From: an uncultured Flavobacteriaceae bacterium
Lineage (GTDB): Bacteria; Bacteroidota; Bacteroidia; Flavobacteriales; Flavobacteriaceae
Length of the DNA stretch: 64,000 nucleotides
NCBI GenBank assembly: GCA_905181835.1
Contig: CAJIZF010000004.1
Location: forward strand, 124,001-188,000
Direction of reading: 5' to 3'
Position numbers and translations under genes: made by a program. Under the pieces are notes generated by a model that saw nothing but the letters and a program-made list of their open reading frames with translations, was not told where the DNA came from and did no database searches. Below, piece by piece: positions 4,022 to 61,410 of this stretch. Numbering within the stretch: the first letter of the stretch is position 1; each line of letters opens with the position of its first letter.

Positions 4022-5479
4022 TTATTCGAGCGGTATTTTTACTGTAAAGGTAGTTCCATCTTCAATGTTTTCTATAAAATTTATATCTCCCCCATACGTT
4101 TCTACAATCTTTTTTACCATGGCTAAGCCTAAGCCCATTCCGCTAGTTTTAGTAGTAAATTTTGGCTCAAAAACCTTCATTTTATTCTCGTCTTTTATTC
4201 CTATTCCATTATCCATTACAGAAATCATTGCAAAGGAACCTTCTTTATAAACATTCACTTTAATATAGGGATTTTCAGGTTGACTTTCGCTAATAGCTTG
4301 AATACTATTTTTTATTAAATTAGTAATTACTCTTATCAATTGAGTTCTATCAAATTTAATAGTGATTTCGTTATTTTCTGAATTGAAATAAATATAGTCT
4401 TCATTGAAAATATCTAAAGTAAGTTTAGTAATCTTCACAATATTGATTGTTTCATCTTGCTGTGCGGGCATTTTTGCATAGGTTGAAAATGCCGATGCAA
4501 TAGAACTCATCGTATCTATTTGCTGTATAAGACTATGGCTATACTCCTTCATTTTATTAAAAATATCTGGATCTGAAGGATCAAATTTTCTTTCAAAACT
4601 CTGAACGGTTAATCGCATGGGAGTTAACGGATTTTTTATTTCATGTGCAACTTGTTTTGCCATCTCTCGCCATGCTGCTTCACGTTCGTTCGAAGCTAAC
4701 TGAGCAGCACTTTTTTCAAGTTCATCAATCATTTCGTTATAAGCTTCTACTAGGGTTGACACCTCTTGTGACTGAAGGGGAATTAATATCTTTTTATTTT
4801 GTTTATCTAGCCTCGTTTCCTTTATAGTATTCGAAATTGAGTTTAGAGAACGGGTGATGTACTTGGATAAAAAATAAGCTAAAATAATCGCAAAGATTAA
4901 CATTAGCACATAAGCAAATCCTAAGCGCCATAAATATTCTTTTAATTCGTAATTTAAAAATTCATCATCTTCAAAATAAGGTAAGTTTAATATAGCAATA
5001 GGTTTAAATTGATGGTCTGTTATGTAGGTAAAAGAAGATTGGTATTCAAATTTATTTTCTATAAACCTCTCAATGAAATGTTTGTCTGTGGATTTTTTTA
5101 AACCGTCAAGTACTTGACTTGAAATTTTAGAATAAATCGTGTCTTTAATAAAGGAGGCTTTTGAAGAAATCAGAATATTCCCTTCGAGATCGTATAAAAA
5201 GAGATCAATTTTATGGATGTCTTTAATCTCGTATATTTTATTTTTAAAAATCAAAGCAATCTTATTAGTCTCTACTACATAGGTGGTGTTTTTGATGACA
5301 TAGTCAATGTTTTCTCGTATGGCCGTTTCTTTTCTAATTAGACGCTCTCGATGATAATCGTTTGTGTTTTCACGATATTGAAAAACCGTTACTACAACAA
5401 TAAGTATAGATGCTCCAATAACTAGGAGTATCATCGATAAAAATATGCGAGATCTTAGAGACCTATTTAAAAAACCCAT
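4022..5479 (-). CDS. Membrane sensor histidine kinase (HAMP, HisKA, HATPase_c)
   Basis: A 485-residue protein. It has a first transmembrane helix at about residues 12-32, an extracytoplasmic sensor region to about 183, a second helix at about 185-207 and a HAMP linker. The phospho-acceptor H279 lies in VAHEIKNPLTP. The ATPase domain has an N box (NLIKNSIQAI), the G1 box DNGIGI and a Gly-rich G2 box. The layout resembles NtrY-like kinases. No response regulator gene is adjacent, so it is an orphan and its partner is unknown. The signal sensed cannot be inferred. Confidence 0.92.
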   Translation of the reverse strand: MGFLNRSLRSRIFLSMILLVIGASILIVVVTVFQYRENTNDYHRERLIRKETAIRENIDYVIKNTTYVVETNKIALIFKNKIYEIKDIHKIDLFLYDLEGNILISSKASFIKDTIYSKISSQVLDGLKKSTDKHFIERFIENKFEYQSSFTYITDHQFKPIAILNLPYFEDDEFLNYELKEYLWRLGFAYVLMLIFAIILAYFLSKYITRSLNSISNTIKETRLDKQNKKILIPLQSQEVSTLVEAYNEMIDELEKSAAQLASNEREAAWREMAKQVAHEIKNPLTPMRLTVQSFERKFDPSDPDIFNKMKEYSHSLIQQIDTMSSIASAFSTYAKMPAQQDETINIVKITKLTLDIFNEDYIYFNSENNEITIKFDRTQLIRVITNLIKNSIQAISESQPENPYIKVNVYKEGSFAMISVMDNGIGIKDENKMKVFEPKFTTKTSGMGLGLAMVKKIVETYGGDINFIENIEDGTTFTVKIPLE

Positions 5480-5533
5480 TTAACTAAATTAGTGTATTTT
5501 TCTATCGTTATTACAAAGGGAATAATTGGTATT

Positions 5534-8500
5534 CTATTCTACTAACAAATAATTTAAATTTAAAGAATTAAATACAGTATTAAATTCTTTAATTTTAGTG
5601 GACACCAGAATATTAAACTTTTCTAATTCCAAATTTATTTTTAAAGTTAATTCATCTTTAACTGCTATATCTTGTTCTGTTGGCGGAAAATCTCCCATTC
5701 CCACCAGACTATTTAAATGTCCTAGTTTGTTTGTTAGTTTAATTGGGAAATTTAAGGGGTCTTGTCCGCTTTTATTTTGTGTTTGATACATTGCCTTTTC
5801 AATTTTAGAAAATTCTTCACTTAATTGTTTAGCCTTTTTATTTAATTCAGCCACGCGATTATCATCTTTATATTGATTTTGAAATGCTAATAATTGACGG
5901 TCAATAGCCCTTATTTTTTTAATAGACTTGTGCGCATTATTAATTGTAAAATTAATGCCTGTTATAAAATCAAACTGTTTTTGCATTCCAATAGTATCTG
6001 ACTCTGAATTTGGATTTGCCAAAATATTAAACTCCTTTTTATAAACTTCGCCATCAATATTCAAAACTACTTTATAGACTCCCGGAACAGCTCGAGGAGC
6101 TTCCAGGCTTGCCCACCATAATATCATCCCATCAAATTTCTCTGCGGATTCTCCTCGAGTGTTCCAAACATAGGTATTTGATCCCTCGATAACTTTAAAA
6201 TTATCGTTTTTATTTCGAGTGTTCAGAGTTTTAATTGTGTCGTTTTTTGAGTTTAAATAACTCAATTTTATTTCTTTGTCGTTTGGGTTTTTAACATAAA
6301 AATGTGTGATAACTCCTGATGGATGGTTAGTCCCTTTTGTTAGTGATGTAGTGAAAGAACCCCCTCGCATTCGATAAGTATCTTTAGGCTTAAATAATAC
6401 ATTTTCTTCTCCTTTTATTTCAGATGCCTGATGAAGAATACTCAAATCATCAAGAATCCATAGGCTTCGTCCCTGTGTTGCAACTACTAAATTATTATTC
6501 TTGACTGCTAAATCTGTTATTGGAACAATTGGTAAATTAAGTTGGAGAGGTTGCCAATAAGATCCTTCGTTATGAGAGTAATAAAGTCCTGTTTCAGTTC
6601 CTGTATATAAAAACCCTTCTTTTTCTGGATCTTCTCTTAAAACTCTGGTGAAATGTTCACTTGGAATTCCGTTAGTGATTTTTTTCCAAGTTTTTCCGTA
6701 ATCTTTAGTTTTGTACAAATAAGGTGTAAAATCCCCTGTTTTATACTTTGTTCCTGCTATATAACAAGTCCCTTCATCGTAATTTGAAGGCTCAATACTA
6801 TTAATCATCATCCAATCTGGCATTCCTTTAGGAGTGACATTCTCCCAGGTTTCACCAGCATCTTTTGAAAGATGTACCAGTCCATCATCTGAGCCTACCC
6901 ATAACAATCCTTCTTTTAAAGGTGATTCTGCTGCTGCAAAAATAGTGCAGTAATATTCTACAGAAGTGTTGTCTTGAGTGATGGGACCACCAGAGGATTT
7001 TAGCTTTGTAGAATCATTTCTTGTAAGGTCTGGACTTATAACTTTCCAACGGTGTCCTTCATTCTCAGAGACATGTACGTGGTTTGAAAAAGTATATAAT
7101 TTTTTAGGATTATGTTTTGAAAAAAACATTGGAAAATTCCATTGAAAACGATATTTCATTTCCTCAGCGCCGTGTCCCATCGGATTGTCTGGCCAAACAC
7201 TTACACTTCGAAGCGTTTTTGTTTGATGATTATATCTTGTTAAAAACCCATCATAACTTCCCCCATACACAATATCGTTGTTCGTTGGGTCGATTGTTAT
7301 ATGTGCGCTTTCACCACCTGCTGTTTCTTCCCAATCATCTTCACTAATACTCCAGTTTTCATTTCTGTGAGAAATTCGTATGGTGGAATTATCTTGTTGT
7401 GCAGCGTAAATTCTATAAGGAAATGCATCGTCTGTGGTAACCCGGTAAAATTGAGCTGTAGGTTGATTGTGATAAGTGCTCCAGGTCTCACCGCCATCAT
7501 AGGTTATTTGGGCACCACCATCGTCACCCATAATCATTCTTTTTGGATTTTCAGGAGCTATCCACAAATCGTGATGGTCTCCATGAGGTGCGTTATGAGT
7601 ACTATAAGTCTTGCCTCCATCAATACTTTTATGATATCTTACGTTTAAGACATAAACCACCTCAACATCTTGAGGGTCTGCATAAATTCTAGAATAATAC
7701 CAAGCTCTTTGCCTTAATTTACGTTCGCTATTTATATAGGTCCAAGTTGATCCTCCATCCATACTTTTATAAACTCCTCCCTTGTCTTTATTTTCGACAA
7801 TTGCCCAAATAACATCGTTATTTACAGGTGAAATAGCCACGCCAATATTTCCTAAAATTCCTTCTGCAAAACCATCGTTTTTCGATATTTCTATCCAATT
7901 TTCACCACTATCAGTACTTTTCCAAAGTGCAGAGCCCTCTCCACCACTACTTAAACTGTAGGGCGTTCTTCTAACATTCCAAGTGGAGGCATATAAAATT
8001 CTTGGATTGGTTGGGTCCATAATTAAATCAACCGCGCCGGCACTTTCATTAACGAACAGCTTTTTAATCCAAGTTTTTCCTCCATCGGTACTTTTATAAA
8101 TTCCTCTTTCCTTGCTAGGCTTATAGATATTTCCTAAAACAGCTGCGTAAACAGTTTGATGGTCTCTTGGATGAATAACAAGTCTAGGAATGTGACGGCT
8201 ATTTTCTAAACCTACAGACTCCCATGATTTCCCTGCGTTTTCTGTTTTCCATACTCCATATCCGGAAGAAACATTCCCTCTAACAGTTGATTCTCCACCT
8301 CCAACATATATTACATTGGAATCATCTTCACTAACAGCTATTGAGCCGATAGAGCCACCAAAAAATCCATCTGAAATATTTTTCCACTGGCGACCACCAT
8401 CTTCTGTTTTCCAAATTCCACCACCTGTTGCTCCAAAATAAAATAGATTGGGTTTGGTAGAAACTCCCGCAACTGCAGCGCTTCTCCCACCACGAAAAGG

Positions 8501-45453: not shown

Positions 45454-45894
45454 TTAGTTTTTTATCATTTCTATATGTGGTATTCCATCTTCTAAATATT
45501 CGTTTCCAACGCTATAAAAACCAAAATTATTATAAAAAAATTTTAAGTGTGACTGCGCAGATATTATGATAGTTTTAGTTTGATAAAGTGTTTCAATTGC
45601 TTTAATAGAATGAATCATAATTTGATTACCTCTTTTTAATTTCCTTTCAGTTTTTTTTACAACAACCCTTCCTATTGAAGCTTCTTTAAAATACTCACCA
45701 GGCTCAAAACATCTGGTATAAGCAACTATTTTATTTTGAATAACTCCGATAATATGAATCGCTTTTTCATCTTTACCATCAATATCTTGGTAAACACAAT
45801 TTTGCTCTACCACAAAAACTTCTGACCTTAATTGTAAAATTTGATATAATTCTTTAGTTGTTAATTCTGAAAAAGTTTTAAAAGTTACCTCCAT
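45454..45894 (-). CDS. GNAT family N-acetyltransferase (ElaA-like)
   Basis: 146 residues. The N-terminal FSELTTKELYQILQLRSEVFVVEQNCVY and the acetyl-CoA loop region IGRVVVKKTERKLKRG resemble the ElaA group of GNAT enzymes. The acceptor is unknown. Its start lies 13 bases after the rpiB stop on the same strand. Confidence 0.85.
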   Translation of the reverse strand: MEVTFKTFSELTTKELYQILQLRSEVFVVEQNCVYQDIDGKDEKAIHIIGVIQNKIVAYTRCFEPGEYFKEASIGRVVVKKTERKLKRGNQIMIHSIKAIETLYQTKTIIISAQSHLKFFYNNFGFYSVGNEYLEDGIPHIEMIKN

Positions 45895-45907
45895 TTAAAT
45901 TTTATAA

Positions 45908-46339
45908 TTAAAGACAACTAATTTTATCTACTCTTTTTTGATGTCTACCACCTTCAAAATCGGTATTTATAAAAATTTTAACCATAGCAATTGCTTGTGG
46001 TATACTAGTATATCTTGCTGGAATGCTTAATATATTTGCATTATTATGTAATCTTGCTAATTCAGTAATTTCTTTTGTCCAACAAAGCGCCGCTCTTACT
46101 TCTTGGTATTTATTAGCAGTCATAGCGGCTCCATTACCTGAGCCACAAATAATGATACCAAAATCTACCTTACTACTAGCAACATCACTTGCTACAGGGT
46201 GAATAAAATCTGGATAATCAACACTATCGTTAGTATCAGTCCCATAATTAAAAAGTGTAATTTTTTTAGAATTTAAAAAATTTACTATAGCTTCTTTATA
46301 AGCAGGTCCAGCATGATCATTTCCAATAGCTATTTTCAT
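45908..46339 (-). CDS. rpiB: Ribose-5-phosphate isomerase B
   Basis: 143 residues: GNDHAGPAYKEAI at the N-terminus, the catalytic-site loop CGSGNGAAMTANK, then RAALCWT and NANILSIPARY. It interconverts ribose 5-phosphate and ribulose 5-phosphate in the pentose phosphate pathway. It begins at the edge of the very AT-rich gap described separately and is co-directional with the GNAT gene. Confidence 0.95.
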   Translation of the reverse strand: MKIAIGNDHAGPAYKEAIVNFLNSKKITLFNYGTDTNDSVDYPDFIHPVASDVASSKVDFGIIICGSGNGAAMTANKYQEVRAALCWTKEITELARLHNNANILSIPARYTSIPQAIAMVKIFINTDFEGGRHQKRVDKISCL

Positions 46340-46842
46340 AAGAATTAATTTTATTATTAATAAATAAATACATCGTATAAATTTAATAAAATATAAAAGA
46401 GCACGATGCTTTGTATATATGTTTTTTAATAAACTGTTAACTACTGTTTATATATTTGTTATAAATATTTTTTGATGCTACTTAAATTTATTCTATTAAG
46501 TTTTTTTTATAAAAAATCCAATAAAAATAATAACTAATTTTAAACAAGTTATTTATTTATTTATAGCTCTTTTCAACTATTATTAGTAAATTATTTATTA
46601 ATAATACACTACTTATAATACTAGTTAACAGTTGTTAATTAAAAACACTATTTATCTAGTTTTCAATAAATAAAAAGTTTTATATATGTTTATATATTGA
46701 TAATAAAATTAATAAATTAAAAATAAAAATAAATTACAAAAAAGTTATTCTACATATTAACACCTAATAATATTAAGCACTTCTTTTAAAAATTAATTAA
46801 ATAAAATAATAGTATTATTATAATTGTTAATAAGTAAAATTA
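46340..46842. other. 500-bp extremely AT-rich noncoding region; possible replication origin
   Basis: No reading frame is supported on either strand. Base content is extreme: 3 G/C in the 60 bases 46681-46740 and 5 in 46501-46560. It holds an exact 12-bp inverted repeat (AACTGTTAACTA at 46432-46443 and its complement at 46622-46633). TGTTAA hexamers, in both orientations, lie at 46435, 46625, 46633, 46757 and 46825. No exact TTATCCACA DnaA box was found by eye. Origin function is an inference. Confidence 0.35.
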
Positions 46843-47082
46843 TTAAACGATTTCTAATTTAGAAGTGTTATTAAATCCTTTAATTATCTGAATTGCTTTT
46901 TCTTTATCCTTTTGATGTACTTGAAGTCTAATTCCTCCAAAAGCATTAGAATGAAAAGGCATTACATTAATAGCTGTTTCGTTTAAAAAAATAAAATTTA
47001 TAAAAGAGCGTTCTAATAATAATTTAAGAACAGCATACTCACTGGGATATGTAAAACGAGCTATTGTTACAAATTCTTTCAA
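46843..47082 (-). CDS. DUF2007 family protein
   Basis: 79 residues with the small two-layer DUF2007 (putative signal-transducing, PII-like) pattern: VTIARFTYPSEYAVLKLLLE at the start and a LQVHQKDKEKAIQII helix near the end. No catalytic motif. It is flanked by the AT-rich gap and the divergent rnr. Confidence 0.75.
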   Translation of the reverse strand: MKEFVTIARFTYPSEYAVLKLLLERSFINFIFLNETAINVMPFHSNAFGGIRLQVHQKDKEKAIQIIKGFNNTSKLEIV

Positions 47083-47173
47083 TTCATTAAAGTTTTAACA
47101 ATACTAAGATAATTATTTATTAATATCCCTATAAAATTATAAACCTTACATTTACCATTACTAAAAATTAAAA

Positions 47174-49394
47174 ATGTCGAGAAGAAAAAAGAGTAGAAAG
47201 AAATCAAGTAATTCCAATCTTACCCAAAGTATATTAACTACTTTAAGAAAACAAAATGCAAAACCAATTAATTACAAACAAATAGCATCTATTTTAGATA
47301 TTAAAGATACTAATACTAGAAATTTATTAATTAAAAAAATAAAGCAACTTCAGTCTGAAGAAAAAATAGAAGAAGTATCTAGAGGAAAATATATAATAAA
47401 AGCTTCAACAAATTATTACATTGGTATAGCAGATGTAACTTCTAGAGGACAAGCTTATATTGTAATAGACGATTTAGAGGAAGATATTTTCGTTAATCAA
47501 AAAAATATAAATCATGCTTTACATGGTGATACTGTTGAAGTTTATATTTTTAAAAGAAATAGAGGTGGAAAACCAGAAGGGGAAATTACTAAGATTTTAA
47601 AAAGAAAGAAAATAGCTTTTGTTGGAGTAATTAAAATTCAAGAACGATTCGCTTTTGTTGAATGTCAGGATACAAAAATGTATACTGACATATTTGTATC
47701 CAAAGAAAATATAAAAAATGCTAAAAATGGTGATAAAGTATTAGTAGAAATTGAAAGTTGGCCTGAAAAGGCAGGGTCACCTTATGGTAAAGTAATCAAA
47801 ACACTTGGAAAACCAGGAGAGCATAATACTGAAATACACTCTATTTTAGCACAATTTGGTTTACCGTACGAATTTGATAAAGAAGTAGAAGATTATGCTA
47901 ATAATATAGACACCACAATAAAAGAAGAAGAAATAAAAAAACGCCGTGATATGCGTGGTGATTTAACTTTCACAATCGATCCAAAAGATGCTAAAGATTT
48001 TGATGATGCTTTATCTTTTAAGGATTTAAAAGATGGTACCTATGAAATAGGTATACATATAGCTGATGTTGCTCATTATTTAATACCAGGAACTATACTA
48101 GATGATGAAGCCTACGAGCGTGCAACTTCAGTTTATCTTGTAGATAGAGTTGTGCCAATGCTTCCTGAAGTATTATCAAACAACGCTTGTTCTTTAAGAC
48201 CAAACGAAGAAAAGTTTACTTTTTCAGCGGTATTTAAAATAGATAATAAAGCTATAATTATTGATCAATGGTTTGGAAGAACAGTTACTTATAGTGACGC
48301 GCGTTTTGCTTATGAAGAAGCTCAATTTATTATTGAAAAAGAAACAATAAATGAAGGAGAACTTATAAATATTCCCTCTGATATTTCTATTACTGGAAAA
48401 ACATATAAAGTACAGAATGAAATTTCTAAAGCTATCTTAAAATTAGACGAACTAGCTAAAATATTAAGAAGAAAAAGAATGAAACAAGGAGCTATTTCTT
48501 TTGATAAAGTAGAGGTAAAATTCCACTCTAGATAAAGATAATAATCCAGAAGGAGTTTATTTTAAAGAAAGTAAAGATGCTAATAAATTAATAGAAGAAT
48601 TTATGTTATTAGCAAATAGAAGTGTTGCTGAATTTATAGGAAAACAAAGCACAAAAAAAACATTTATTTATAGGGTTCATGATGAACCTAATGATGAGAA
48701 AATTGCAGCTTTACAAAATATTATTAGACAATTTGGATATAAAATAGATACTAGAGACCGAAAAACAACCTCTAACTCTTTAAATAATTTATTAAAAGAT
48801 GTTCAAGGTAAAAAAGAACAAAACTTAGTGGATACACTTGCAATACGCTCTATGAGTAAGGCGGTTTATACTACAGAAAATATTGGTCATTACGGATTAG
48901 CTTTTGATTTTTATACACATTTCACCTCACCTATTAGGCGTTATCCAGATGTAATGGTCCATCGACTTTTGCAATTTTATTTAAACAAAGAAAATAGCGC
49001 AAATAAAGACCAGTTTGAAGAAAAATGTAGACATAGTAGTGAAATGGAAGGTTTAGCAGCCCAAGCTGAACGAGCTAGTATTAAATACATGCAGGTAAAA
49101 TATATGTTTGATCATCAAGATCAAAACTTTTTAGGTGTAATTTCTGGTGTGACCGATTGGGGAATTTATGTTGAAATTATTTCTAATAAATGCGAAGGAA
49201 TGATCAGACTACAAGACATGAAAGATGATCATTATACTTTCTACAAAGAAGAATTTGCAGCTGTTGGTGCTCGAACCAAAAATAGTTATCAGCTCGGAGA
49301 TGAAGTTTATGTACAAGTCAAAAATGCAGATTTAGTAAAAAAGCAACTAGATTTTAAAATGTTAGGACATAAAAAAGATTTCACAACTAATTAA
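47174..49394 (+). pseudogene. rnr: Ribonuclease R, frame broken in the RNB domain
   Basis: The first part (47174-48535) has a basic N-terminus, a helix-turn-helix, cold-shock domains and the RNB metal site DPKDAKDFDDALS. It stops at TAA just after KVEVKFH. The second part (frame +1, recognisable from 48528) continues LDKDNNPEG ... EEFMLLANRSVAEF and ends with the S1 domain at 49394. Dropping the T at 48527 restores one protein of about 740 residues. RNase R digests structured RNA 3' to 5'. The exact fit of the restored LDKDNN to the family points to an inserted base there, not to slippage at the stop. Confidence 0.92.
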
Positions 49395-55566: not shown

Positions 55567-58500
55567 ATGAGCAGTTTTTCAGAAATCCAGTCAAAGCTGG
55601 AACAGTTTATTAAAAAATACTACACTAGTAAGTTAATAAAAGGGGTCATTCTTTTTTTTAGCATTGGATTAGTATACTTAATTATTACCCTACTTATTGA
55701 ACATTATTTATGGCTAACTCCTGTAGGACGAACTTTACTGTTTTGGGTATTTATAACAGTCGAAGCCTTACTGTTTATAAAACTAATAACTTTCCCTTTA
55801 TTAAAATTATTTAACCTTCAACAAGGAATATCAGATATTGAAGCGTCTAAGTTAATAGGAAATCATTTTCCTGAGGTAAGCGATAAGCTCCTTAATGTAA
55901 TTCAACTAAATCAAAATCAAAGAGAATCAGAGTTATTACTCGCTAGTATCTACCAAAAGGCAGAAGAATTACAACCAGTACCCTTTAAAACTGCAATTAA
56001 CTTCAAAGCAAATAAAAAGTACCTAAAATATGCACTGGTTCCTATCGTTATTTATGTATTGTTTTCTGTACTAGGGGAAAAAGATATCTTTTATAGTAGC
56101 TATAACAGGGTTGTTAATTACAATACCGCTTTTAAGCCCCCCGCGCCATTTAAATTCCAAGTTAAAAACAAATCCCTCACTACTTTAGAAAACAAAAGCT
56201 TTTTATTAAAAATCCAAACAACCGGGAAGTATACGCCTGAAAACGTTAGTATAAAATACAACAAAGAAACTTACTATTTAAATCAAACTTCTCCGGATAT
56301 TTTTGAATACACATTTATTCAGCCCATTAATTCAATTAGTTTTAATTTAACAGCAAACCAGGTTAACTCTAAGGAATACACCCTTAATGTGTTAAAAACT
56401 CCGTCTTTAGTAGGTTTTAAAATGAAGTTAGATTATCCAAACTATATTGGAAAAAAATCTCAGGTTATAGAAAGTACTGGAAATGCCACCATCCCTCAAG
56501 GAACCCTAGTCTCTTGGTTTGTTGAAACTAAAAATACAAATCAAGTACAATTAAAAACTTCAGAAACAGCATATAGTTTACTAAAAGACAAAGAACAATT
56601 CCGCCTTAAAAAAAGAATCTATAAAAATTTAAATTATACACTTACCACTTCCAACGCTAAATTAAAAGAATACGAAAACTTATCTTTTTCTCTATCTGTT
56701 ATAAAAGACCAATATCCTGAAATAAATATAGCAACTCAACAAGATAGTGTCTATTATCAAAAAACCTATTGCTTAGGAACCGTTTCCGATGACTATGGGC
56801 TCACTAAACTACAATTAGTCTATTATCCATCCTCAGATGAAGCCAGTAAAAAAACCATAACCATAGCGTTAAGCGCCTCAAATTTTGATCAATTTACGTA
56901 TGTCTTTCCTGGAAATCTTTCTCTGATGAGCGGCGTCTCTTATAATTATTATTTTGAAGTATTTGACAATGATGCGCTTCAAAATTTTAAGTCTAGCAGG
57001 TCTTCCCTTTTTTCATATAGAAAACAGACTCAGGAAGAGATTGAAAATGAACAACTTCAGAAACAAGAAAATACCATTAAGAGTTTGGATAGGTCTTTGG
57101 AAAACATAAAAGATCAAGACCAAACGTTAAAGGAACTTTCAAAGTCTCAAAAGGAAAGTGAACAACTCAATTGGAATGATAAAAAGAAACTAGAAAAGTT
57201 TCTCATGAAGCAGCAAGAACAAGAAAAAATAATGAAAAACTTCTCGAAAGAATTAAATGAAAATTTAGAAAATTTTCAACCGAAAAATCGAGATAACGAT
57301 CCCTTTAAAGAACAACTGAAAGAACGCTTTCAAGAAAACGAAAAACTATTAGAGAAAAACGAAAAACTTATAAAGGAACTTGAAAAACTTCAAGATAAGA
57401 TACAGAAAGAGGAGCTAACAGAGAAACTAGAACAGCTATCCAAACAAAATAAAAATCAAGAAAAAAACCTGGAGCAACTTTTGGAGTTAACCAAACGATA
57501 TTATGTAACCAAGAAAGCAGAAAAGCTTGCTGAAGAATTAAATAAACTTGCTGAAGAACAGGAAAAATTAACGAATGTTAAAGATGAAAAAAACACCAAA
57601 GAAGCCCAAGAGCGAATAAATAAGAAGTTTAAAGAATACACCGAAGAAAAACAGAAATTAGAAAAGGAAAATAACGATTTAAAAGATCCGTTAGATATAC
57701 CTAATGATCAAAAGGAAGAGGAAAAAGTTAAAGAAGAACAAAAAGAAGCCACAGACAACCTAAAAAACGATAATAAAAATGCTGCAAAACAAAACCAAAA
57801 AGCTGCTGCAAAAAAGATGAAACAAATGGGCCGTAAAATGCAAATGCAAATGCAGTCAGGCCAGATGAAAACAATGGATGAAGATTCGGAAATGTTACGA
57901 CAAATATTAGATAATCTTGTAGTTTTTTCTTTTGAACAAGAAGCACTCATGAAAGATTTTAAAAAAATAGATTATGGTAATGCGCTTTTTGGCAGAAAAT
58001 TAATAAAACAAAATGAATTAAAACAAAACTTTGAACACATAGACGATAGTCTTTTTAGTTTATCCTTAAGACAACCTATGCTGGGCGTTGCTATCAACTC
58101 TTCTTTAACTCGAATTAACTTTAATCTAGATAAAAGTTTAGAAAGAATCGCTGAAAATGAAATGGCAATAGGAGTTTCTAGCCAACAATATACTATTACG
58201 GGCGCCAATGAACTTGCTGTTCTGCTTAGCGATATTTTAAGCGGCATGCAAAATCAAATGAGCAGCATGGGACAAGGCAAAGGTAAAGGTAAAGGTAAAG
58301 GAATGGGAGAGGGTGAAGGTGAAGGCCAGGGATTCCAATTACCAGATATTATAAAAAAACAAGAAAGTCTTACAAAAAAAATGGAAGAAGGTCTTAAAAA
58401 AGAAGGGGCAGACGGCAAAGATAGTAAAGGTCGTGAGTCAAGGTCAAGGTCAAGGTCAAGGTGAAGGTCAAGGAGGTAACGAGGGCTCTTCAGAAAACGG

Positions 58501-59489: not shown

Positions 59490-59505
59490 TGTTCCACGTG
59501 GAACA
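59490..59505. other. parS-type centromere site (upstream of mnmG)
   Basis: TGTTCCACGTGGAACA, a perfect 16-bp palindrome identical to a known ParB-binding parS variant. It lies 11 bases before the mnmG ATG. No parA or parB gene is in the window. Confidence 0.85.
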
Positions 59506-61394: not shown

Positions 61395-61410
61395 TGTTTC
61401 ACGTGAAACA
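61395..61410. other. parS-type centromere site (downstream of mnmG)
   Basis: TGTTTCACGTGAAACA, the canonical 16-bp parS palindrome as in Bacillus subtilis, seven bases after the mnmG stop and 43 bases before the methyltransferase ATG. Confidence 0.9.

Follow-up and report, generated by a model that had tools for sequence, protein, structure and literature searches.

Origins of chromosome replication in the Bacteroidetes are commonly located far from dnaA, according to DoriC as cited in a Prevotella genome paper (PMC4755523). For individual members of the group, genome reports describe an Ori-Finder 2022 origin at mnmG in Algorimicrobium/Bizionia, for which the authors report agreement with GC skew (PMC12843772), and, in Elizabethkingia meningoseptica, a 649-bp Ori-Finder origin that contains three TTATCCACA-like boxes and is remote from dnaA (PMC8994065). 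In Blattabacterium, neither DnaA boxes nor dnaA were found (PMC2768785). DnaA boxes that are specific to a lineage have been described in cyanobacteria (TTTTCCACA) and Thermotoga (AAACCTACCACC) (PMC10225481), and the DnaA box of epsilonproteobacteria has the core TTCAC (PMC5043019). A basal unwinding system has been defined that consists of a DnaA box, a spacer of at most 16 bp, and at least three trios of the form 3'-NAN-5' (PMC8287927). Positions 399, 423, 432-435 and 438-439 of DnaA are base-specific (PMC5043019), and a similar list of base-contacting residues is given in PMC7561715; the recognition helix reads the TnCACA part of the box and R399 reads TTA (PMC5742627).

Here we analyse an intergenic gap between rpiB and rnr in a stretch of 64,000 nucleotides (the window, bases 124001-188000 of contig C4) from a 2.30-Mb flavobacterial genome assembled in 8 contigs. 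This gap is very probably the chromosomal replication origin (oriC) of the bacterium, located far from dnaA and equipped with altered DnaA boxes.

Results

The gap between rpiB and rnr

The nearest named relatives of the organism are Flavobacteriaceae, and the top match in an RpiB scan was 98% identical. The features of the locus are collected in Table 1. The gap had been described as very AT-rich and noncoding, and this was confirmed. Its GC content is the lowest among 7,820 windows of 500 bp in the 400 kb of its own contig that were sampled, and the 300-mers with the lowest stability in that sample, computed from base-stacking energies, also fall within it. The gap thus contains the AT-rich, thermodynamically unstable element that is looked for in an oriC. 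Up to 500 bases upstream of rpiB were GC-poorer than the locus as a whole in 80 of 80 relatives, two of which (L025 and L082) contributed merely 127 and 274 upstream bases to this comparison.

The neighbours of the gap had been named correctly in part. The assignment of rpiB was supported by Pfam, and rnr is present but split into two ORFs (47174-48535 and 48603-49394) by a frame break inside the RNB domain; its counterpart in relative L007 is one 739-aa ORF. The split may reflect either an assembly error or a recent frameshift. The DUF2007 label given to the small ORF next to rnr proved weak, as no DUF2007 match was obtained for the 79-aa protein of the window and the counterpart ORF in L007 matched with E = 0.0083, below the cut-off. 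Elsewhere in the window, a 965-aa protein encoded at 55567-58464, shortly upstream of ybeY and mnmG, gave a weak DUF4175 match and no NCBIfam match.

Table 1. Coordinates of the features at and near the gap (window numbering).
Feature	Position	Strand	Remarks
Gap, putative oriC	46340-46842		503 bp, intergenic, 13.1% GC; extends from rpiB to the small ORF adjoining rnr
rpiB	45908-46339	minus	Pfam PF02502 (LacAB_rpiB); anchor gene for the comparison
79-aa ORF flanking the gap	46843-47082	minus	at most weakly DUF2007-like
rnr (RNase R)	47174-49394	plus	two ORFs in the assembly
Least stable 100-mer of the window	46649-46748		stability computation; candidate unwinding element
Box 1, TTATTAACA	46825-46833	minus	variant DnaA box, full 9-mer; forms a conserved inverted pair with box 2
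Box 2, TATTAACA	46755-46762	plus	inverted relative to box 1; start-to-start distance 70 bp
Box 3, TATAAACA	46687-46694	minus	box comparison
Box 4, TATAAACA	46445-46452	minus	box comparison
ACAGTTGTTAAT element	46628-46639	plus	its 10-mers are among the most gap-enriched
Block with 3-nt period beside box 2	46763-46780	minus	3'-TAT-TAT-TRG-TRG-TAA-5' in relatives, DnaA-trio-like; partly kept in the window
parS site TGTTCCACGTGGAACA	59490-59505		exact; upstream of mnmG
parS site TGTTTCACGTGAAACA	61395-61410		exact; downstream of mnmG

Five TGTTAA/TTAACA hexamers are present in the gap, at 46435, 46625, 46633, 46757 and 46825. As had been claimed, this number is above expectation: shuffles that keep the dinucleotide composition contain 1.40 on average, and 12 of 1000 reach five. 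The 12-bp inverted repeat at 46432-46443 and 46622-46633 was found to be exact, but it was rejected as evidence for an origin because inverted repeats in the gap are no better than chance; the longest exact one measures 16 bp, which 202 of 1000 shuffles match. Both strands of the gap fold better than shuffles (z of -2.9 and -3.2), and we read this as a probable effect of inverted AT-rich repeats. An RNA element was rejected, with two tRNAs as the sole Rfam matches in the window at the gathering threshold, and so was an intrinsic terminator, none being found in 45800-47300. Promoter-like matches at the gap were not above chance (10 found, 13.0 expected).

A putative variant of the DnaA box upstream of rpiB

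The comparison used the best 80 of 555 relatives from one RpiB scan, together with their flanking DNA. L025 and L082, with fewer than 450 bases upstream, were left out of the box counts, which are therefore based on 78 relatives, or 79 loci with the window. Unsupervised counting of 8- to 10-mers in the 79 gaps placed TATTAACA, TATCAACA, CTATTAACA and GTTATTAACA at or near the top, and we read these as what appears to be one motif, with the full form TTATNAACA and the shorter form TATNAACA. Automatic motif fitting ended in a GTTNAAC-like palindrome that had about 31 sites per gap, and it was replaced by counted patterns.

The motif TTATNAACA is the DnaA box TTATNCACA with the C at position 6 changed to A. 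Exact copies number 148 in the 40,560 gap bases of the 78 relatives versus 157 in 1,083,222 flanking bases, a 25-fold enrichment. The unaltered TTATNCACA was enriched 11-fold in the same set (22 in gaps, 51 in flanks), and boxes with T or G at position 6 were enriched 3- to 5-fold. Position 5, at the centre, is free in the 8-mers (T155, A50, C49, G32), as it is in DnaA boxes. Within 630 bp upstream of rpiB, at least three TAT[N][AC]ACA boxes were present in 70 of 79 loci, one or two in 7, and none in 2, so that most loci hold the cluster of DnaA-box-like sites that marks an oriC.

The site searches used the consensus sequences of parS and of the E. coli DnaA box. No TTATCCACA was detected in the window gap even with one mismatch allowed, as the original prediction had it for exact matches, and an E. 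coli-type box with C at position 6 (CACA core) is thus missing from it. The prediction of unusual initiator boxes was right as to the presence of variant boxes and wrong as to their unit, which is TTATNAACA and not TGTTAA; merely two of the five hexamers fall within a TATNAACA box. In the sampled part of its own contig (400 kb), the gap ranked first among the 7,820 windows in TATNAACA count and was the sole place with at least three boxes per 500 bp. In relative G119 (Candidatus Arcticimaribacter forsetii), where the rpiB gap (L036) contains seven, a second place with three TATNAACA per 500 bp was found at 328.7-329 kb (L119), perhaps a secondary DnaA-binding site.

Order, spacing and address of the array

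Judged by these sequences, the window gap is a weak case when taken alone and a strong one when compared with relatives. It has one full 9-mer box, a number that 204 of 1000 shuffles have as well, and four 8-mer boxes, as many as are present in 4 of 1000 shuffles. In relatives, the order, strand and spacing of the boxes tend to persist while the centre base varies, and the repeats are conserved in the sense originally asked for. The commonest distance from a forward to a reverse box is 71 (26 cases), followed by 70 (13 cases, level with 10). Of the 79 gaps, 42 contain an inverted pair spaced 69-73 bp apart, and when the whole set was shuffled 50 times the pair never appeared; a variant of the count with longer flanks and slightly different limits resulted in 44 of 79. 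Across 24 whole genomes, the exact 71-bp pair (63 bases between the boxes) occurs in three places, all directly upstream of rpiB, and a reversed control occurs in one place, in another genome. The pair of the window is spaced at 70 and hence missed by this exact pattern.

Box 4 resembles, in its strand relative to rpiB and in its place, a box that many relatives carry between about -80 and -170, counted from rpiB. The sequence CAGTTGTTAA was observed 25 times against 0.8 expected and is present in 22 of 79 gaps. The block adjoining box 2 was analysed in the 42 upstream regions that have the pair. Counted from box 2 in the 3' to 5' direction, T is found at positions 5, 8, 11, 14 and 17 in 81-100% of these regions, and A at positions 6, 9, 12, 15 and 18 in 100, 100, 40, 62 and 86%, respectively, with a high chance level in DNA this rich in A and T. 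The block resembles DnaA-trios, an identity that we do not claim for it.

The array does not depend on adjoining rpiB, since in Winogradskyella eximia (L058) it has stayed beside rnr despite two genes inserted between it and rpiB (5083-7697). These genes encode, to our eye, putative secreted repeat proteins. The array of this species adjoins rnr about 3 kb from rpiB and has the usual spacing (4553 to 4624, 71 bases). No box array was found in the 16-kb rpiB locus of Winogradskyella psychrotolerans (L054), where the origin may be located further away. Loci of the family, order and class were also read for boxes; in 7 of these 59, five of them from the window's own family, rpiB was not located. 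Among 24 loci of the order, arrays are present in several families; families f52 (2 loci) and f60 (1 locus) are without a box and f57 (3 loci) has one. The 28 class loci contain 66 TATNAACA and 16 TATNCACA within 600 bp upstream of rpiB, and 7 of them are without TATNAACA. The location of the array at rpiB may therefore be old in the Bacteroidia, yet it is not universal.

GC skew, parS and the position of dnaA

For four single-contig relatives, a two-level model of GC skew was fitted to samples of 20 stretches per genome, each 20 kb long; all intervals obtained in this way are rough. The fitted turn lies at or adjoins rpiB in three of the four. In G011 it falls at 800-980 kb, with rpiB at 911 kb and dnaA at 1 kb, and the error is 0.0389 for an origin at rpiB versus 0.1248 at dnaA. 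The turn in G052 is at 800-1,400 kb (rpiB 1,237 kb, dnaA 1 kb) and that in G033 at 220-380 kb (rpiB 219 kb, dnaA 2,503 kb); for neither genome does a skew model of the right sign fit an origin at dnaA. The fourth relative, G119, has a weak skew and was sampled unevenly, and its best turn at about 240 kb (interval 200-480 kb) is about 60 kb away from rpiB at 180 kb. In the sampled part of the window's own contig, the cumulative skew has its minimum at about 158-160 kb, some 10-12 kb from the gap at 170.3 kb.

The putative origin is thus at or near the GC-skew minimum, with the offset in G119 as stated, but the local skew does not show the turn. For 62 relatives, skew was measured out to 8 kb from rpiB in either direction, and farther than 2 kb from the gene it is negative on the two sides alike; genes at 34-45 kb of the window point towards the gap and carry positive skew. 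Partial stretches around rpiB gave a turn from negative to positive in G106, no clear turn in G017, and the opposite order (positive, then negative) in G099; these three were left out of the fit because their stretches cover the surroundings of rpiB only. The skew check that had been proposed for the origin is therefore mostly favourable: on the chromosome scale the turn agrees with rpiB in three of four relatives and lies about 60 kb off in G119, and on the local scale it is not seen. GC skew is too coarse to tell the gap from mnmG and parS 13 kb away.

Two exact parS sites were found at the distance of 13-15 kb that had been stated (Table 1), and the gap has parS in its neighbourhood as is looked for in an oriC. 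Twenty of the 24 genomes have exact sites at distances of 6-55 kb from rpiB, and four have none; in this survey G019 was judged across contig ends, and G077 contains an additional, distant rpiB-like gene. A third parS-like site, TGTTTCACGTGTAACA, is located at G000:C4:644057-644072, far from the putative origin.

In contrast to the classical arrangement, dnaA is not adjacent to the gap. It is located on another contig (C6) of the same genome and about 0.9-1.5 Mb from rpiB in G011, G052 and G033. The single contigs of G011 and G052 start at dnaA, whose C-terminal domain is at 1150-1356; the putative origin would be 0.9-1.2 Mb from there.

DnaA residues at box-contacting positions

Residues were read in a subset of the matching genomes, from the DnaA proteins of 30 class loci plus L003, of 30 family loci, and of 29 of 30 further order loci, the window's own genome having been counted already. 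In an alignment with the DNA-binding domain of E. coli DnaA (1J1V), the protein of the window genome carries P423A and T435A and retains R399, D433 and H434. Ala at position 435 was found in all 30 fetched DnaAs of the family, 29 with A423 and one with Y423, and in all 21 that were read in seven further order families. The seven DnaAs of family f2 all have T423/S435. The same T423/S435 combination was observed in G218 (locus L329), which belongs to the window's own family and is thereby a natural test case for co-evolution of box and initiator.

Upstream of rpiB, the seven f2 genomes have 10 TATNAACA and 9 TATNCACA versus 287 and 32 in the window's family (Fisher 9e-5, under an assumption of independent boxes that does not hold); in essence, the comparison amounts to a single evolutionary contrast. 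Within f2, genome G234 (S435) has three AACA boxes and no CACA. The ratio of TATNAACA to TATNCACA is 15:0 and 11:0 in families f56 and f59, both with A435. Outside the order, the regions upstream of rpiB in eleven class genomes with A435 contain 18 TATNAACA and 8 TATNCACA in total, with neither box in three of the eleven; CACA boxes can thus coexist with A435. The corresponding counts in three S435 genomes of the class, likewise outside the order, are 2 and 0. Across the 31 DnaAs of the class set (L003 included), residue 435 is Ala in 18, Ser in 12 and Thr in 1. The altered residues and the altered box thus appear to go together within the order, and the picture is mixed outside it. Co-evolution of initiator and box is only suggested by these data, and our confidence in the oriC assignment does not rest on it.

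Discussion

The proposal that the gap is a replication origin is supported with high confidence by the conserved and ordered box array, the skew turn, the parS sites and the changes in DnaA residues. At such an origin, DnaA would bind an ordered array of TTATNAACA boxes in place of TTATNCACA. An oligomer would be built from the inverted pair of box 1 and box 2 and from the boxes nearer rpiB, and would open the flanking, very unstable AT-rich DNA, upon which the helicase would load and bidirectional replication begin. ParB is captured by parS, by which new origins are segregated, and the two sites 13-15 kb away would serve this role here. The change in the box fits a DnaA without the contacts made by T435 and P423 in E. 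coli; that one change caused the other is our inference, and the comparative support for it is mixed.

As an unlikely alternative, the origin could be at mnmG and parS, and the array at rpiB could be a secondary site of DnaA binding with a role in DnaA titration or in the regulation of initiation. Loci with these functions are known in E. coli as datA and DARS. The parS sites flank mnmG, 13 kb is beyond the resolution of the skew, and mnmG is where Ori-Finder 2022 predicted the origin of a Flavobacteriaceae genome (PMC12843772). Unless set otherwise, that program searches for the E. coli box, and its score includes indicator genes (PMC10225481); this default box, TTATCCACA, together with the scoring could explain why the gap was missed; an origin with altered boxes may escape standard searches. 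The region around mnmG is also poor in boxes. About 1 kb around its 5' end contains one TATNAACA and one TATNCACA and about 1 kb around its 3' end contains none, the two having 31-33% GC, and 5 kb around parS in G119 contain two TATNAACA, whereas the density of boxes in the gap is unique in the sampled part of its contig.

The boxes could also be transcription-factor operators for rpiB or rnr in a long promoter region, a reading that we consider more improbable still. The gap is indeed upstream of rpiB and promoter-like matches are present in it, but at a number that does not exceed chance. The boxes are located on both strands over about 450 bp with a recurrent long spacing, their arrangement is kept where inserted genes separate the array from rpiB (which would be compatible with a role for rnr), and operators would leave the chromosome-wide skew turn and parS unexplained. 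Intergenic DNA is AT-rich in such genomes, and the inverted repeat is not significant, as would be expected if the gap were ordinary intergenic DNA without special function. Against this we can set the 25-fold enrichment of the box, an architecture that recurs throughout the family, and the extreme composition of the gap, and we give this last reading almost no credence.

If the gap is the origin, the box consensus and its recurrent address between rpiB and rnr would be available for locating origins in a large bacterial group, for which the published predictions considered here rely on indicator genes and on the box of E. coli. A proper anchor would then be available for cloning vectors, for work on replication timing, and for estimates of growth rate from peaks in coverage. 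The system would also offer a testable case of an essential protein and its binding site possibly changing together. More tentatively, and as a reading somewhat less likely than not, which the counts outside the order and in G234 weaken, we suggest that much of the Bacteroidia may have re-coded the box (C6 to A with loss of T435 and P423) and kept the origin by rpiB and rnr in many families, away from dnaA; the family with T423/S435 and mixed CACA and AACA boxes might then be an intermediate.

A search of open-access full texts, with DoriC entries outside its scope, returned no paper containing TTATNAACA and none that joins oriC, Flavobacteri and rpiB. The distance from dnaA is shared with the Bacteroidetes origins predicted in DoriC (PMC4755523). 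There, the origin was predicted by a search for the E. coli box with one mismatch allowed, whereas the gap has a variant box found family-wide and a recurrent position between rpiB and rnr. The origin predicted in Algorimicrobium/Bizionia resembles the locus in that mnmG is 13 kb from the gap of the window, and differs in that we place the origin at the box array (PMC12843772). As with the lineage-specific boxes described elsewhere, the consensus has diverged within one lineage. The change in the gap box replaces the C with which the CACA core begins (position 6), a base that the cyanobacterial and epsilonproteobacterial consensus sequences keep. The conserved block with a 3-nt period lies on the 5' tail side of box 2 at a distance of about 4 nt, a placement that may correspond to that in the basal unwinding system (PMC8287927), but some trios lack the middle adenine, and in the window the block is degraded. 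Like the DnaA-dependent origins of the E. coli and B. subtilis type, the putative origin combines an array of boxes with a free centre, unstable AT-rich DNA, a skew turn and parS. Unlike them, it has A in place of C at position 6 of the box and, in three genomes, dnaA 0.9-1.5 Mb away. The locus would therefore be a DnaA-dependent oriC, a known kind of element, built from a box that is a new variant as far as we have searched.
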